Origin: Clostridia bacterium
Lineage (GTDB): Bacteria > Bacillota > Clostridia > Oscillospirales > QAKW01
Length of the DNA: 39,826 bases
NCBI GenBank assembly: GCA_017440465.1
Contig: JAFSHF010000004.1
Coordinates: 1 to 39,826, forward strand
Reading direction: 5' to 3'
Shown here one piece after another: positions 3,469 through 23,273 of this stretch. Position 1 is the stretch's first letter. The number at the start of each line of letters is the position of its first letter. The position numbers were made by a program, and so were the translations under genes. The notes under the pieces were generated by a model. That model was not told the DNA's origin. It made no database searches and worked only from the letters and a program-made list of their open reading frames with translations.

Positions 3469-3822
3469 GGGGTCGTAAAGGTTTCGACGGGGATCTTGAA
3501 GTGTGATAAGCGTGCGGTGGCGCACAACCACCTTAAAATGTGTAACTTTAAAAATAAACGCTAACACTAATAAATTAGCTTACGCTGCTTAATTAACGCA
3601 GCGTCATCTCGGTGCGAAGGACCACGAGCGCATTTGGGGTGTCATTTTCAGTGGTGAACGTTTTCGGCTAAGCTTTGCCCCGAAAATGTATAATGAAGCT
3701 ACCAATTTTATCAGCCTGTTTATCGGCGGATAAATGCGGGAATTGCAATAGATAAACTACGCACGTAGAAGGTTGCATGAATGGGTTTTCGGACAGGGGT
3801 TCGACTCCCCTCGGCTCCACCA
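3469..3822 (+). ncRNA. ssrA: Transfer-messenger RNA (tmRNA)
   Basis: A 354-base one-piece tmRNA. The 5' end GGGGTCG pairs with the 3' segment CGGCTCC ahead of ACCA to form a 7-bp acceptor stem, with one G-U and one U-G pair. The T-arm reads ACAGGGGTTCGACTCCCC and the 5' part carries the hallmark GGTTTCGACGGGGAT. The tag frame starts at GCT 3560-3562 and reads ANTNKLAYAA, ending with TAA at 3590-3592. With the alanine carried by tmRNA the tag would be A-ANTNKLAYAA. It ends in AYAA instead of the more common ALAA. CCA is encoded at the 3' end (3820-3822). The partner protein gene smpB is upstream. Confidence 0.97.
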
Positions 3823-16910: not shown

Positions 16911-18746
16911 TTATTTTAATGCGCGCATTGCATTTAATATGGCAATCACCATCACGCCCACATCGGCAAAGACTGCAAGCCAAATGCCTGCAATGCCAAA
17001 TGCGCCCAACAGCAGAACCAATCCTTTGACGACCAAAGAAAAGATAATATTTTGCCAAACGATCCGCATCGTTCTCTTGGCAATATCCACCGCCAACGGC
17101 AGTTTTTTAAGTTGGTCGTCCATCAACACCACATCCGCCGCTTCAATGGCGGCATCGCTCCCCATCGCGCCCATGGCAATGCCGACATCGGCGCGCGCCA
17201 ACACCGGCGCATCGTTGATACCGTCGCCGACAAAGGCGACCGTTCCCGCTTGATTTTCCTCGAGAATCTGCTCGAAAATCTCTACTTTCTGCTGGGGCAA
17301 CAGTTCGGCTTCCACCCGATCCAGCTTTAATTGCTCTGCGATCAAGGTTGCTTTACTTACAGCATCTCCCGAAAGCATCACAAGTTTTGTTATTTTTTGC
17401 TTTCTTAATTGCAAAACCGCTTCTTTTGCATCGGGCTTTAGTTCATCGTAGATACGAATAAACCCTGTATAACTGCCATCGATGGCGACATAGATCGCTG
17501 TCCCTTTCAGTTTGGGCAACGGCTCTGTTACACCGGCACTTCTCATCAGCACTTCATTTCCTGCATAAATCGACCGACCATCGACGGTTGCGCAGATGCC
17601 CTGACCCACCACTTCTTTTAAATCCGAAACGCGAGCACGATCCAATTCCCCTGCATATTTCGCGCAGATGGATTGGGCGATGGGGTGGTTGGAATGGCTT
17701 TCCGCCAATGCCACCAGCTCCAGCAGTTCTTGGTTGGAGCAATCTTCCGCTACAATTTCTACCACGCTGAAGTTCCCGGTAGTCAGCGTTCCTGTTTTAT
17801 CAAAAACGACGGTTTGAACCTTTGCCAATGCCTCCAGATCGGAACCGCCTTTAATAAGAATCCCTTTGCGGGAGGCACCGCCGATCCCGCCGAAAAAGGA
17901 GAGCGGGACCGAAATCACCAAGGCGCAGGGGCAAGACACCACCAAAAAGATCAGCGCACGATGGAGCCAATCCTGCCAACCGCCGAGAAACAGCGGCGGG
18001 ATCAATGCCAATGCCGCGGCCGCGATCACTACACAAGGGGTATAATACTTTGCAAACCGCGAAATGAACCGCTCTGCCCGCGCTTTTTTGAGTGCCGAGT
18101 TTTCCACCAATTCCAAAATTTTAAAAACGGTGCTTTGCTCGAAGGATTTTTCAACCCGAATATGAATCAAACCTGAAAGATTAACCGATCCGCTCAGCAC
18201 TTCATCTCCAACCTTGCAACTTCTTGGTAATGATTCACCGGTCAGCGCCGCGGTATCCACCGTTGTCTCTCCCTGCAAAACCACACCGTCCAGCGAGATC
18301 TTCTCTCCGGGATAAACTACAATGGTTTCTCCGATCTCCACTTGATCGGGAGAAACTTCTGTCTCTTTTCCTTCGCGAAGAACCATTGCACGGTCGGGGC
18401 GGATATCCATCAACTGAGCAATGGAACGGCGGCTTTTGCCCACCGCGATGCTTTGGAACAGTTCCCCCACTTGGTAGAACAGCATCACCGCCACCGCTTC
18501 CAGATATTCGCCGGTGGCAAAAGCACCAAGGGTGGCAAGTGCCATTAAAAACTTTTCATCAAAGACCTGACCACGCAGAATATTGGAAATTGCTCCCCAA
18601 ACGACATCATATCCCACAATGAAATACGGAATTAAAAACAATCCGATCTTCAGCCAATGGTCCGGCGAAATCAATGCCGCGATCAATAACGATACCGCCG
18701 CGGCGACGATTCGGACCGACATTCTTTTTTGCTTTCTGCTCATCAT
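16911..18746 (-). CDS. Zinc/cadmium-type heavy-metal P-type ATPase
   Basis: 611 residues from the ATG at 18744-18746. The CPC metal motif is at 272-274 in VSCPCALVISVPLS, the phosphorylation site DKTGTLTTG has D316, and the SHSNHPIAQ segment holds the HP motif of P1B pumps. A lysine in the next-to-last helix (SLVVKGLVLLL) and ADVGV in the last helix match the Zn/Cd (IB-2, ZntA/CadA) type. It exports zinc or cadmium. It has no N-terminal HMA metal-binding domain; one is fused to the upstream ArsR regulator instead. The start overlaps the regulator stop by four bases (ATGA). A longer frame beginning at TTG 18764 is less likely. Confidence 0.9.
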   Translation of the reverse strand: MMSRKQKRMSVRIVAAAVSLLIAALISPDHWLKIGLFLIPYFIVGYDVVWGAISNILRGQVFDEKFLMALATLGAFATGEYLEAVAVMLFYQVGELFQSIAVGKSRRSIAQLMDIRPDRAMVLREGKETEVSPDQVEIGETIVVYPGEKISLDGVVLQGETTVDTAALTGESLPRSCKVGDEVLSGSVNLSGLIHIRVEKSFEQSTVFKILELVENSALKKARAERFISRFAKYYTPCVVIAAAALALIPPLFLGGWQDWLHRALIFLVVSCPCALVISVPLSFFGGIGGASRKGILIKGGSDLEALAKVQTVVFDKTGTLTTGNFSVVEIVAEDCSNQELLELVALAESHSNHPIAQSICAKYAGELDRARVSDLKEVVGQGICATVDGRSIYAGNEVLMRSAGVTEPLPKLKGTAIYVAIDGSYTGFIRIYDELKPDAKEAVLQLRKQKITKLVMLSGDAVSKATLIAEQLKLDRVEAELLPQQKVEIFEQILEENQAGTVAFVGDGINDAPVLARADVGIAMGAMGSDAAIEAADVVLMDDQLKKLPLAVDIAKRTMRIVWQNIIFSLVVKGLVLLLGAFGIAGIWLAVFADVGVMVIAILNAMRALK

Positions 18747-18964
18747 TTTATAATAATTCTGCAATTGGGATCGACTTTCTTGACCGCGCGCTGAGCCTGC
18801 TTCATAATATCCTCGGCGCGCTCCTCATCCAATTCAATGATCATCTTCTGCGCGAAGAAATTGACAGACACGTCAAAAACACCTTCCAATTTGCGAATCT
18901 GCTCTTCCATTTTGGCGGCGCAATGGGCGCAATCCAAATCTTCCATCATAAATGTTTTTTTCAT
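18743..18964 (-). CDS. Possible separately translated HMA metallochaperone (internal start)
   Basis: Within the fusion gene, the ATG at 18962-18964 begins the HMA domain and is preceded at six bases by AAGGGGAG (GGGGAG at 18971-18976), a strong ribosome binding site in the minus-strand mRNA. Translation from it would give a free 73-residue metallochaperone with the DCAHC metal site, like CopZ, in addition to the full fusion. This is inferred from the site alone. The sequence coding for the ribosome binding site reads as Glu-Gly-Glu-Arg in the fusion, so it could be coincidence. Confidence 0.45.
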   Translation of the reverse strand: MKKTFMMEDLDCAHCAAKMEEQIRKLEGVFDVSVNFFAQKMIIELDEERAEDIMKQAQRAVKKVDPNCRIIIK

Positions 18965-19300
18965 TCTTCTCTCCCCTTCTGTTATGTGATTAAATCCTTG
19001 GGCAATAATCAAGTTCACATGATCATCCGCCAAGGAATAATAAATGGTTTTCCCTTCCCTGCGAAATGCGACAAGATTTGCATCTTTCAATACCTTTAAT
19101 TGATGGGAAATCGCCGATTGGGTCATCCCCAAAAGCTCGGCGATGGCGCAAACGCAAAGTTCCGATTCAAATAATGAATATAAAATTTTGATCCGCGTCG
19201 GATCGCCGAAGATCTTAAATAAATCCCCCAGCCGATTCAGTTTTTCATCGGGCGGGAGCTGGGAACGCACCGCCGCCAACGTTTCTTGATGGTTATGCAA
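18743..19300 (-). CDS. ArsR/SmtB metal sensor fused to an HMA metal-binding domain
   Basis: 185 residues from TTG 19298-19300. Residues 1-112 form an ArsR/SmtB winged helix: ELCVCA at 47-52 carries the alpha-3 cysteine pair (C49, C51), the recognition helix follows in MTQSAISHQLKVL, and alpha-5 has D92-x-H94-x10-H105-x2-E108, the zinc-sensing motif of CzrA/SmtB. Residues 113-185 are an HMA domain starting MKKTFMMEDLDCAHC, with C124 and C127. It should repress its operon until zinc or cadmium binds. The longest frame starts at ATG 19336, but this lies within 1 base of the -10 box and in the operator, so it would not be transcribed; GGAGG at 19310-19314 fits the TTG. An internal ATG may make the HMA domain alone. 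Confidence 0.8.
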   Translation of the reverse strand: MHNHQETLAAVRSQLPPDEKLNRLGDLFKIFGDPTRIKILYSLFESELCVCAIAELLGMTQSAISHQLKVLKDANLVAFRREGKTIYYSLADDHVNLIIAQGFNHITEGERRMKKTFMMEDLDCAHCAAKMEEQIRKLEGVFDVSVNFFAQKMIIELDEERAEDIMKQAQRAVKKVDPNCRIIIK

Positions 19301-19317
19301 ACAAATGAACCTCCATT

Positions 19318-19339
19318 CATATGAATATCTGCTCATATG
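19318..19339. promoter_or_regulatory. ArsR/SmtB-type operator
   Basis: A 7-base inverted repeat CATATGA...TCATATG with an 8-base centre (CATATGAATATCTGCTCATATG in two parts: CATATGAATAT and CTGCTCATATG). It resembles SmtB/CzrA operators (ATATGA-n-TTCATAT). It overlaps the -10 box of the sensor-ATPase promoter, a position that would block transcription when occupied. Confidence 0.7.
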
Positions 19340-19681: not shown

Positions 19682-22600
19682 ATGTATAAGAGCGTATCCC
19701 CCAACCTCAATTTCGTTGAGGAAGAGAAGAAAATCGAAAAATTCTGGCGCGAAGAAAAGATCTTTGAAAAGAGCGTACAGACCAAAGCGGAAGGGACCCC
19801 CTATGTCTTTTACGACGGCCCGCCGACCGCCAACGGCAAGCCCCATATCGGGCACGTTCTGACCCGCGTTATCAAGGATATGATCCCCCGCTACCGCACC
19901 ATGAAAGGTTGTATGGTCCCTCGCAAGGCCGGCTGGGATACCCACGGCCTGCCTGTAGAGCTGGAAGTGGAGAAAATGCTGGGGCTGGACGGTAAAGAGC
20001 AGATCGAAGAATACGGCTTGGAGCCCTTTATCGGCTATTGCAAAGAAAGCGTTTGGAAATACAAAGGAATGTGGGAAGATTTTTCCAGAACCGTCGGTTT
20101 TTGGGCGGATATGGACGATCCCTATGTTACTTATCATAATAACTTTATTGAATCGGAATGGTGGGCTTTAAAGCAGATCTTTGATAAGAAATTGCTTTAT
20201 AAAGGCTTTAAGATCGTTCCCTATTGCCCCCGCTGCGGCACTCCCCTTTCCTCCCACGAAGTCGCTCAAGGGTATAAGGCGGTCAAAGAACGCAGTGCGG
20301 TCGTTCGCTTCAAGGTCTGCGGCGAAGATGCCTATTTCCTCGCTTGGACCACAACCCCTTGGACTCTGCCCAGCAACGTTGCCCTTTGCGTCAACCCCAA
20401 TGAGACCTATTGCAAGGTCAAGGCGGCAGACGGCTATACCTATTATATAGCCGAAGCCTTGATGGAGAAAGTTCTTTCCAATCTGGGCGATGAAAATACC
20501 CCCGCCTATGAAGTATTGGAAAAATATGTCGGCAGCGATTTAGAGCGCAAAGAATATGAGCCGCTCTTTGATTATGTGAAACCCATCTGCGAAAAGCAGG
20601 GCAAAAAGGGTCACTACATCACCTGCGATAATTACGTCACTATGACCGACGGTACCGGTATCGTTCATATCGCTCCCGCCTTTGGTGAAGACGATGCCAA
20701 TGTGGGCAGAAAGTATGATCTCCCCTTTGTTCAGTTGGTCAACGGCAAGGGCGAATTGACCGAAGAGACGCCCTATGCAGGCATCTTCGTCAAAAAAGCC
20801 GATCCGATGGTTCTGACCGATCTGGAAAAGGCAGGATTGCTCTTTGATGCACCTAAATTTGAACACGATTATCCCTTCTGCTGGCGGTGCGACACTCCGC
20901 TGATCTATTACGCGCGTGAATCCTGGTTCATCAAAATGACCGATGTACGCGAGGATCTGATCCGCAACAACAACACCATTAATTGGATCCCCGAAAGCAT
21001 CGGCAAAGGCCGCTTCGGCGATTGGCTGGAAAATGTTCAGGATTGGGGTATCTCCCGTAACCGCTATTGGGGAACTCCGCTCAATATCTGGCAATGCGAT
21101 TGCGGGCATCTCCATTCCATCGGCAGCATTGCCGAACTCAAGGAAATGAGCGATAATTGCCCCGATGAGATCGAATTGCACCGTCCGTTTATCGACGCGG
21201 TCACCATCAAATGCCCCGTTTGCGGCAAGGAAATGCACCGTGTTCCCGAAGTCATCGACTGCTGGTTCGATTCCGGCGCGATGCCCTTTGCTCAGCACCA
21301 TTATCCCTTTGAAAATAAGGAACTCTTTGAGTCTCAATTCCCCGCCGACTTCATTTCCGAAGCGGTGGACCAGACCCGCGGTTGGTTCTATTCCCTGCTG
21401 GCAATTTCGACCCTGATCTTTAATAAGGCTCCTTATAAAAACGTTATCGTTTTGGGGCACGTTCAGGACGAAAACGGCCAGAAGATGAGTAAATCCAAGG
21501 GCAATGCGGTCGATCCCTTCGAGGCATTGGAATCCTACGGTGCCGATGCCATCCGCTGGTATTTCTATACCAACTCCGCCCCCTGGCTGCCCAACCGTTT
21601 CCACGGCAAAGCAGTTATCGAAGGCCAGCGGAAATTTATGGGTACTCTTTGGAATACCTATGCATTCTTTGTCCTCTATGCCAATATCGATAAGTTTGAT
21701 CCCTCCAAGTACAATCTCAACGATTGCACCCTCACGGTTATGGATCGCTGGTTGCTCTCCAAGCTCAACACGATGGTCAAGACGGTAGATACCAATTTGG
21801 AAAACTACCGTATTCCCGAAGCGGCACGAGCCTTGGAAAGCTTTGTGGACGATATGAGCAACTGGTATGTCCGCCGCGGCAGAGAACGCTATTGGGCCGC
21901 CGATATGCCGGAGGATAAGATCGCCGCTTATATGACTCTTTATCACGCGCTGGTGGTTACCGCCAAGACCGCTGCCCCGATGATCCCCTTTATGGCGGAG
22001 AACATCTATCAGAATTTGGTACGCAGCATTGATAAAGATGCCCCCGAAAGCATCCATCTTTGCGACTTCCCCGTTGTTGACGAAGCGCGCATCGATGCCG
22101 CTTTGGAAGCGGATATGGAAAAACTGCTGAACGTTGTCGTTCTGGGCCGCGCCGCAAGAAACGGCTCCGGACGCAAGAATCGCCAGCCCCTTGCTTGTAT
22201 GTATATTGAAAGCAACGAGGCGTTGGGTGATGAATTCATCGATATCATTAAAGATGAACTCAATGTCAAGGCAGTTTCCTTCAAGGAAAATCTGAGCGAG
22301 TTTATTGCTTATGAGTTTAAGCCCCAACTCAAGACGGTTGGTCCCAAATACGGCAAACAGCTCGGCGAGATCCGCACCGCTCTGGCAGAAATCGACGGTG
22401 CCGCCGCCAAAGCAGAACTGGATGATTGCGGCGCAATCATTCTGAACCTGCCCGGCGGAACGGTTAAATTGGAGACCGAAGATCTTTTGATCAGCGTTGC
22501 CCAAAAGGACGGCTACTATACCGCCAAGGATAAGGGCTACACCGTTGTTCTGGATATTCAACTGACCGAAGAATTGATCCGCGAAGGCTTCATCCGCGAG

Positions 22601-22834
22601 ATCATTTCCAAGATCCAGACCATGCGGAAGGAATCCGGCTTTGAGGTGATGGATCACATTGAGATCTACATTGCAGGCAATGAAAAACTCATCGCCCTGC
22701 TCCAAGAAGATTTTGATGAGGTCGCCGCAAGCACCTTGGCTGATCAACTTCATATCAATGAAACCGCGCCCGAATTTTCCAAAGAATGGGATATCAACGG
22801 CGAAAAGGTTACCCTGGGTGTAAAGAAAATCTAA
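19682..22834 (+). CDS. ileS: Isoleucyl-tRNA synthetase, type-2-like
   Basis: 1050 residues. Charges tRNA-Ile with isoleucine and has a class I core plus an editing domain. The HIGH motif lies in GKPHIGHVLTRVIKD (about 53-67) and KMSKS in GQKMSKSKGNAVDP (about residue 600). GWDTHGLPVELEVEK and the long C-terminal part without the terminal zinc finger seen in the approximately 930-residue bacterial type 1 enzyme point to the eukaryotic-like type 2 (IleRS2). Type 2 enzymes are known for low sensitivity to mupirocin. Control is by the T-box leader. The ribosome binding site is AAAAGGAG. A 765-codon open frame on the opposite strand is a codon-use artefact. Confidence 0.97.
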   Translation: MYKSVSPNLNFVEEEKKIEKFWREEKIFEKSVQTKAEGTPYVFYDGPPTANGKPHIGHVLTRVIKDMIPRYRTMKGCMVPRKAGWDTHGLPVELEVEKMLGLDGKEQIEEYGLEPFIGYCKESVWKYKGMWEDFSRTVGFWADMDDPYVTYHNNFIESEWWALKQIFDKKLLYKGFKIVPYCPRCGTPLSSHEVAQGYKAVKERSAVVRFKVCGEDAYFLAWTTTPWTLPSNVALCVNPNETYCKVKAADGYTYYIAEALMEKVLSNLGDENTPAYEVLEKYVGSDLERKEYEPLFDYVKPICEKQGKKGHYITCDNYVTMTDGTGIVHIAPAFGEDDANVGRKYDLPFVQLVNGKGELTEETPYAGIFVKKADPMVLTDLEKAGLLFDAPKFEHDYPFCWRCDTPLIYYARESWFIKMTDVREDLIRNNNTINWIPESIGKGRFGDWLENVQDWGISRNRYWGTPLNIWQCDCGHLHSIGSIAELKEMSDNCPDEIELHRPFIDAVTIKCPVCGKEMHRVPEVIDCWFDSGAMPFAQHHYPFENKELFESQFPADFISEAVDQTRGWFYSLLAISTLIFNKAPYKNVIVLGHVQDENGQKMSKSKGNAVDPFEALESYGADAIRWYFYTNSAPWLPNRFHGKAVIEGQRKFMGTLWNTYAFFVLYANIDKFDPSKYNLNDCTLTVMDRWLLSKLNTMVKTVDTNLENYRIPEAARALESFVDDMSNWYVRRGRERYWAADMPEDKIAAYMTLYHALVVTAKTAAPMIPFMAENIYQNLVRSIDKDAPESIHLCDFPVVDEARIDAALEADMEKLLNVVVLGRAARNGSGRKNRQPLACMYIESNEALGDEFIDIIKDELNVKAVSFKENLSEFIAYEFKPQLKTVGPKYGKQLGEIRTALAEIDGAAAKAELDDCGAIILNLPGGTVKLETEDLLISVAQKDGYYTAKDKGYTVVLDIQLTEELIREGFIREIISKIQTMRKESGFEVMDHIEIYIAGNEKLIALLQEDFDEVAASTLADQLHINETAPEFSKEWDINGEKVTLGVKKI

Positions 22835-22835
22835 C

Positions 22836-23078
22836 AATAAAAAATGGGAAGGTTTGGCCGCCCTTACTTAGAGAATATTCGCCTTAAAATCCAAGATTTT
22901 GGATTTTAAGGTGCTTGACAGTTTTGAAGCACAGATTTTTTGTTCAAGGGCAATAATAAAAATCGCGCAATGCTAAAGCATTACGCGATTTTTTTATGGT
23001 TCTTGGGCGAAAAAGATGGTTTCAAAACCGAATCTTCCCTAAGTGAGGGCGGCCTTGGTACCTTCCCATTTTTTATTT
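22836..23078. repeat. Fold-back (MITE-like) element between ileS and copZ
   Basis: The gap between the convergent ileS and copZ genes is filled by an imperfect inverted repeat. The left arm (22836-22880, AATAAAAAATGGGAAGGT, then GGCCGCCCTTACTTAG) matches the reverse complement of the right arm (about 23029-23078) with a few mismatches and a 3-base length difference. Inside are a perfect 13-bp hairpin (22882-22894 / 22899-22911), a partial inner match (GTTTTGAA 22921 with TTCAAAAC 23021-23028) and a central terminator hairpin. The right arm reaches into the last codons of copZ. No transposase is present. No open frame of note is inside. Confidence 0.7.
22958..22995. terminator. Central terminator hairpin of the fold-back element
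   Basis: 16-base stem AAAAATCGCGCAATGC / GCATTACGCGATTTTT with one C-A mismatch and loop TAAA, followed by a run of T on the plus strand and, on the minus strand, by TTTTTATTATT. It probably ends both ileS and copA-copZ transcripts. Confidence 0.75.
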
Positions 23079-23273
23079 TACTTCAAATCCAAGGTCTTCA
23101 ATGATCTCAACGGCCTTTTCTTTCAGTGCCGCATCGGCCTCAAACGAAACCGTCTTCTCTTGCAAGTTGATTTCAATATTTGAAATTCCCTCCTGCTGCT
23201 TTAAAGCATCCTCGACGCTATGCACACAGTGCATACACATCATTCCGTCGACCTTTAATATGATTTTTTCCAT
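23073..23273 (-). CDS. copZ: CopZ-like copper chaperone (HMA domain protein)
   Basis: 66 residues, a single HMA ferredoxin-like fold. The metal-binding loop GMMCMHCVHSV has C13 and C16. The beta-alpha-beta-beta-alpha-beta pattern is complete and ends LGFEVK. It carries Cu(I) in the cytosol to CopA. It lies 11 bases after copA in the same orientation, which supports the copper call. Its stop codon lies in the right arm of the fold-back repeat. Confidence 0.85.
   Translation of the reverse strand: MEKIILKVDGMMCMHCVHSVEDALKQQEGISNIEINLQEKTVSFEADAALKEKAVEIIEDLGFEVK

Follow-up and report, generated by a model that had tools for sequence, protein, structure and literature searches.

The gap between ileS and copZ in the window, by which we mean the whole analysed stretch of 39,826 nucleotides (contig JAFSHF010000004.1 of the Clostridia bacterium assembly GCA_017440465.1), very probably holds an internally deleted copy of a non-autonomous Clostridia element that inserts into the loops of terminator hairpins at AA or TT. 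Sequence comparisons establish its dispersal, the conservation of its structure, its choice of target and the existence of empty sites at the ileS/copZ locus. The original prediction had described the fold-back of about 240 bp in this gap as one MITE-like unit that had become the shared terminator of two convergent genes. We confirmed that the fold-back is real but composite, with the arms of a host terminator outside and a 199-bp inserted element (22856-23054) inside, and the MITE-like, non-autonomous nature of this inner part was borne out by many copies in relatives, by empty sites and by short target repeats. The features concerned are the following, with the strand given where one was assigned:

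19682 to 22834 (+): ileS, isoleucyl-tRNA synthetase (Pfam tRNA-synt_1 and Anticodon_1).
22839 to 22853: left arm of the native two-way (ileS/copZ) terminator, AAAAAATGGGAAGGT, in perfect pairing with 23060-23074; a plain, complete terminator hairpin lies at the same place in the orthologous loci L211 and L213.
22854 to 22855: left copy of the TT direct repeat (target repeat); AA/AA or TT/TT stands at the ends of 37 of 49 copies.
22856 to 23054 (+): inserted MITE-like element of 199 bp, an internally deleted copy that aligns with copies in relatives and is missing from orthologous loci.
22856 to 22871: left terminal arm of the element, GGCCGCCCTTACTTAG, pairing with 23039-23054; other copies have different yet complementary letters at the same position.
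22882 to 22911 (+): remnant of arm A, a perfect 13-bp hairpin where full copies have one of about 110 nt; similar independent deletions occur in L020 and L231.
22919 to 23029 (+): arm B, a conserved long hairpin (model R1; 118.9 bits and E 1.4e-30 in its own genome, the window being one of the 16 sequences used to build the model).
22958 to 22995: apical hairpin between A and T tracts, a candidate two-way intrinsic terminator by its fold and conserved A/T-tract pairs, absent from the generic scan.
23039 to 23054: right terminal arm of the element, CTAAGTGAGGGCGGCC (repeat search and fold).
23055 to 23056: right copy of the TT direct repeat (comparison of the ends of 49 copies).
23060 to 23074: right arm of the native terminator, ACCTTCCCATTTTTT, overlapping the copZ stop (pairing; plain terminator in orthologous loci).
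23073 to 23273 (-): copZ-like heavy-metal-associated protein (Pfam HMA, E 8e-16).

A repeat search of the window found a perfect 18-bp outer inverted repeat (22836-22853 / 23060-23077), an inner inverted repeat of 45 nt matching at 76% (22856-22900 / 23010-23054), a perfect 13-bp hairpin (22882-22894 / 22899-22911) and a central hairpin (22958-22974 / 22977-22993). All features predicted for the fold-back were present, including the imperfect arms of roughly 45 bases, the 13-bp hairpin and a right arm that holds the end of copZ, whose stop (23073-23075) sits inside it; the fold-back starts at 22836, two bases past the last base of the ileS stop (22832-22834). The RNA fold of the whole reached -130.6 kcal/mol compared to -56.6 ± 4.9 for 200 shuffles (z -15.2), and the opposite strand also gave a z of -15.2. 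No open reading frame of at least 60 aa was found within 22856-23054. The predicted central terminator stood as far as its hairpin is concerned, but a generic terminator scan listed no site in 22780-23120, because a C-A mismatch breaks the apical stem in this copy, and our reading of it as a terminator is based on fold and conservation. Elsewhere in the window, a single ORF at 18743-19336 (-) appears by eye to fuse an ArsR-type repressor to a heavy-metal-associated domain and adjoins a P-type ATPase ORF (16911-18764), and a tmRNA gene (Rfam RF00023) is found at 3469-3822 (+).

Full copies of the element are about 280 bp long and have two inverted hairpin arms (e.g. L010, L015, L021, L028), the second of which, about 110 nt long, occupies the place of the 13-bp hairpin. 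Compared to them, the window copy is internally deleted, with most of one arm lost and the 13-bp hairpin left; similar deletions were seen in L020 and, in another family, in L231. A nested insertion, which had been proposed as the source of the extra hairpin, was ruled out, as full copies carry the complete arm there and the hairpin is its stump. Full copies fold as a T, in which the terminal arms close the junction from which arms A and B leave. The arm B model matches arm A on the opposite strand, and arm A compared to arm B gave a mean z of 4.3 when reverse-complemented and 1.4 when compared directly (33 copies); by this measure, many copies carry arm A as an inverted version of arm B. Three rearranged copies (L022, L011, L030) have halves from different contexts, as if by recombination between copies.

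The structure of arm B is conserved beyond its letters. Among 33 arm B sequences, whose alignment ignored structure, 19 of 34 pairs had double changes, 95.4% of cells pair compared to 80.7% in shuffles, and the covariation score was 0.439 compared to 0.156 in shuffles (0 of 500 reached it), while a slid alignment gave at most 0.118. The compensatory changes that the original prediction had suggested looking for are present. The stem below the loop varies by compensation while the A and T tracts at the apex stay, their pairs (columns 40-43 with 75-78) being A-U in 30 to 33 of the 33 sequences. Constant tracts together with a covarying stem are the footprint expected of a two-way intrinsic terminator, for which the apical hairpin is a candidate in this comparison. 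The terminal letters of the element vary among copies, even those of one genome, yet stay complementary.

In the window's own genome, which is 65% complete and consists of 32 contigs, the stretch matched itself only. Such a single copy of its type would fit a one-off local palindrome, but this explanation is refuted, with practically no probability left to it, by copies in many other genera and in all but one of the six genomes of its own genus. A search limited to the window's own genome would mislead because just one copy of this type was found there; the further copies that the original prediction had suggested looking for were found in relatives. DNA matches occurred in 6 of 59 relatives, the window's genome included, five of them being among the six genomes of the genus, and the core common to the copies corresponds to 22903-23055 of the window. 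Model R1 had matches in 16 of the 148 genera sampled in the order (27 of 295 genomes; E <= 1e-5) and in 16 of the 222 genera sampled in the class (28 of 391 genomes; E <= 1e-6), figures that describe the wider family, as some matches are related fold-backs with other ends (L129, L131, L132, L133, L136). At least four equal-scoring R1 copies (123.9 bits) lie at contig ends of one genome, G005 (C4, C11, C23, C40), and many copies were located at contig ends with equal scores, as recent repeats give in short-read assemblies.

Other collections gave no copy. The R1 search of the named ileS contigs L031-L110 had 0 matches in 80, the plasmid search had none for the window stretch or two other copies, the phage search had none for the window, and a pattern scan of viral contigs found none. 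Searched against phages, the copy L153 gave eight short matches, all of them in a different fold-back with the same arm motif, and these phage fold-backs match neither of our models. No Rfam family fell on the element at the gathering score (window and ten loci), nor did any match on it exceed the gathering score of any family when E values up to 1 were allowed (seven loci).

The site of insertion was assessed in 49 copies, namely the window, 11 of the 20 loci from the relatives' DNA matches and 37 fetched stretches, with the element ends placed by eye from conserved end motifs. Loci that were cut by a contig end, truncated or rearranged were left out (L008, L011, L012, L016, L020, L024, L026, L030), and L009 is also outside the set, though intact. 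From 60 stretches fetched, 13 were excluded because they lay at contig ends, and another 10 were dropped from the remaining 47 as one end was unplaceable (L154, L165, L167, L168, L170, L177, L183, L190, L203, L210). Copies of other families examined by eye and fold-backs with other ends are outside the counts.

Outside the element ends, the letters differ from copy to copy, yet the left and right flanks pair. Pairing of 24-nt flanks had a mean of -15.8 kcal/mol when they were matched and -8.0 kcal/mol when mismatched (best of 10,000 permutations, -10.1), and a copy's own right flank was its best partner of 49 in 26 copies. Runs of at least four T were found in the right flank of 36 of 49 copies and A-runs in the left flank of 39, compared to 4 and 2 in the reverse controls. 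The target duplication that had been suggested as a check was seen as well, the dinucleotide that ends the left flank also opening the right flank in 38 of 49 copies (TT 21, AA 16, TG 1) compared to 18.7 expected; three end bases agree in 13 (5.2 expected), four agree in none, and 11 copies have no matching dinucleotide at their ends. When the site was closed, with one dinucleotide dropped where they match, it had a hairpin z below -2 against mononucleotide shuffles in 36 of 49 copies, often with a stem of at least 8 bp and a loop of 3-7 nt (L015, L173, L197), and was not clearly a stable hairpin in 13, including L006, L014, L022, L179 and L189. By eye, families from other orders display the terminator-loop pattern in L227, L228, L229 and L236 and do not in L230 and L235.

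The gene context places the element at gene ends. With mechanical ORFs, a gene 3' end lies at most 160 nt from a flank in 43 of 48 copies and 23 of the 48 lie between convergent genes (L022 was left out of this count). A gene 3' end within 60 nt was found for 33 of 37 copies compared to 21% of random positions, and convergent gene pairs flank 12 of 37 compared to 2.5%. Such a position, together with the terminator-like hairpin, could also suggest long structured terminators that evolved in place at gene ends and are not mobile. We consider this highly improbable, as it is contradicted by orthologous loci without the element, by equal-scoring copies at unrelated loci of one genome and by flanks that are unrelated between copies and pair best with their own partner.

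The empty sites that the original prediction had proposed to look for were found in two genomes of the same genus, G001 and G002, where the orthologous locus consists of ileS, a plain terminator hairpin and copZ (L211 and L213, respectively). Once the element is removed from its sequence, the window can be aligned straight across the junction to L211 over 1190 nt at 79% and to L213 over 1200 nt at 72%. A plain terminator after ileS was also found in G003 and G005. The native terminator of the window consists of the two arms AAAAAATGGGAAGGT / ACCTTCCCATTTTTT, its loop before the insertion was TTGGT and the repeated bases are TT. The element thus did not become the shared terminator of the two genes, as had been claimed, but landed in the loop of a pre-existing two-way terminator. 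The true empty site is known for this one locus, and the remaining sites were reconstructed from their flanks. In G004 (L212), a TA-type fold-back lies right behind an intact ileS terminator, and the same gene end has drawn two elements in two species.

A full copy is a palindrome of two halves that each consist of a terminal arm and a hairpin of about 110 nt, and as a single strand it folds into a T. By our comparisons, it inserts at AA or TT within the small loops of intrinsic terminator hairpins, and the dinucleotide then stands on both sides. The host terminator stem is split by the insertion yet intact, and with its halves pairing beyond the arms of the element, the whole would still fold as one long hairpin. 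The apical hairpin with its conserved A and T tracts probably halts transcription from both sides. With the split stem still folding and a stop signal at the apex, insertion would be nearly neutral, and terminators would be safe landing places. An enzyme acting in trans would have to recognise the folded or paired ends of the element, because the terminal letters vary between copies while remaining complementary. With close and distant relatives in the stop signals of other genes in many Clostridia of the gut, the element appears to be a DNA parasite drawn to sites where it causes little damage. A more far-reaching proposal is that folding is recognised at both partners, the T-shaped single-stranded element being brought into the loop of the host terminator hairpin by a RAYT-like or other enzyme and supplying a replacement two-way terminator, which would make terminators a class-wide safe haven in Clostridia; taken as a whole, we regard it as unlikely.

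No autonomous element or transposase could be linked to the family in searches for IS30, IS630, IS1182 and Y1 types in 18-20 genomes, nearly all of which are carriers. One possible route, which we consider rather unlikely, is that a RAYT-type (HUH, Y1) transposase joins the folded single-stranded element into the exposed loop of a folded hairpin, in which case the repeated AA or TT would be the target dinucleotide and the element's own end, not a duplication. This route is favoured by element ends that are conserved as structure more than as letters, by the inverted arms A and B, as in the inverted doublets of REPs, and by the presence in G236, G001 and G055 of proteins similar to RAYTs (matches to REP_Tyr_transpos that stay below its cut-off, E 4e-18 to 5e-20), the one in G236 having TnpArep 4er8 as its best PDB match (E 5e-5). 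The AA or TT also tends to be constant within a genome, with agreement in 39 of 55 within-genome pairs compared to 291 of 611 between genomes (76 of 10,000 shuffles); both AA and TT copies are present in five genomes. This tendency hints that the dinucleotide is tied to the orientation of the element, which would fit a single-strand mechanism. However, Y1_Tnp was above its cut-off in only 7 of 20 genomes and was not found in G002, G004, G014 and G053, all rich in copies, although the Pfam model is described as weak on RAYTs in the excerpted text of PMC6006769. Furthermore, the three RAYT genes (L240, L242, L243) have no R1 match closer than about 1.5 kb, whereas RAYT genes are usually flanked by their repeats, the REPs, according to the same excerpts (PMC6006769). 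The RAYT gene of G236 is about 2.1 kb from a copy, a closeness that may be due to chance.

An alternative explanation is that a DDE-type transposase cuts the palindromic DNA with a 2-bp stagger and leaves a true 2-bp duplication, an appreciable possibility that nevertheless falls short of likely. The matching dinucleotides at the ends would be accounted for directly, and hairpins are already known as targets of an IS1182-family element, IS1272, as far as the excerpts of PMC5678879 and PMC4923244 describe it. On the other hand, the IS30 profile was above its cut-off in 0 of 20 genomes (three fragments in two genomes, G087 and G073), the IS1182 transposase was found in 0 of 20 and a DDE_3/IS630-type transposase in 1 of 18. 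The single IS630-type locus (L225) was rejected as a partner, its ends being unrelated to the element. In the near-complete G236, all ten matches to the end pattern formed five element-sized pairs, none of them at the length of an insertion sequence, and terminal letters that differ among the copies of one genome are unusual for ends that such a transposase binds.

We file the element as MITE-like, with a new target habit and architecture. It is short and has no coding gene, it has terminal inverted repeats, it is dispersed in multiple copies among relatives (the incomplete genome of the window itself has one of this type), and its end dinucleotides match, which under a HUH mechanism would not be a true duplication. 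The IS30 family produces 2-bp duplications at palindromic targets. The element resembles it in its short duplication and palindromic target and differs in that carriers have no IS30 transposase above the cut-off. MITEs of the IS630 type have TA targets, in contrast to the AA or TT in terminator loops found here, and IS630 is nearly absent from the genomes searched. Closer to these MITEs are the TA-flanked fold-backs of the window's genome, a second T-shaped kind (L141, L142, L144-L147, L150) with ends such as TAAGGTGACAAGAATAATCC or TAAGCAAACACGAATAA and an arm like arm A, which have TA on both sides in most cases and are not in terminators. A third kind (L246 and L247; MT837249 and MT838409), whose ends resemble GGCAATACCGCACAATT and whose arm motif is similar, is on contigs filed as human-gut phages, and similar ends also occur in L133 and L046. 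RUP and other IS630-type MITEs, as portrayed in excerpts of PMC3049150 and PMC10969869, are like the element in size, terminal inverted repeats and folded structure.

Similar to the element, SPRITE of Streptococcus pneumoniae is a small dispersed terminator-like repeat that is concentrated close to the 3' ends of genes and in the gaps of convergent pairs, and it consists of a single duplex of 18 bp that has AAAA/TTTT ends and a U-rich tract; according to the excerpted part of that report, neither empty sites nor target duplications came to light (PMC3049150). The element described here differs in having long terminal arms and two hairpin arms inverted to each other, in inserting into terminator loops with a repeated AA or TT, and in the existence of empty sites. 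IS1272 and TnSha1 also insert into terminator hairpins without common target letters, but IS1272 encodes a transposase and deletes or replaces the target hairpin without duplication (excerpts of PMC5678879 and PMC4923244), whereas the element here keeps the stem on both sides and repeats the dinucleotide, and its carriers lack an IS1182-family transposase in the 20 genomes searched. REPINs share two inverted hairpin units, an intergenic position and a non-autonomous nature, and RAYT-like genes are found in a few carriers here; unlike REPINs, which are built of 20-40-bp REPs, the element has arms of about 110 nt, targets terminator loops and does not flank the RAYT genes (REPIN features as excerpted from PMC3116915 and PMC6006769). 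A review of MITEs mentions terminators, in its excerpted text, just as a possibility and through SPRITE (PMC10969869). Our literature search, whose scope fell short of most subscription journals and all bioRxiv preprints so that a prior description is possible, found no description of this element family.

Homing to intrinsic terminators is known for few mobile elements, of which those of the IS1272 type destroy or replace the terminator, as reported in the excerpts of PMC5678879 and PMC4923244. An element that lands in the loop, keeps the stem and brings a terminator-like hairpin of its own would explain how such a parasite persists in compact genomes. Its ends, which change their letters while remaining paired, make structure-guided target choice directly testable. 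A puzzling intergenic fold-back that occurs in many MAGs, often at contig breaks, also becomes a recognisable feature.
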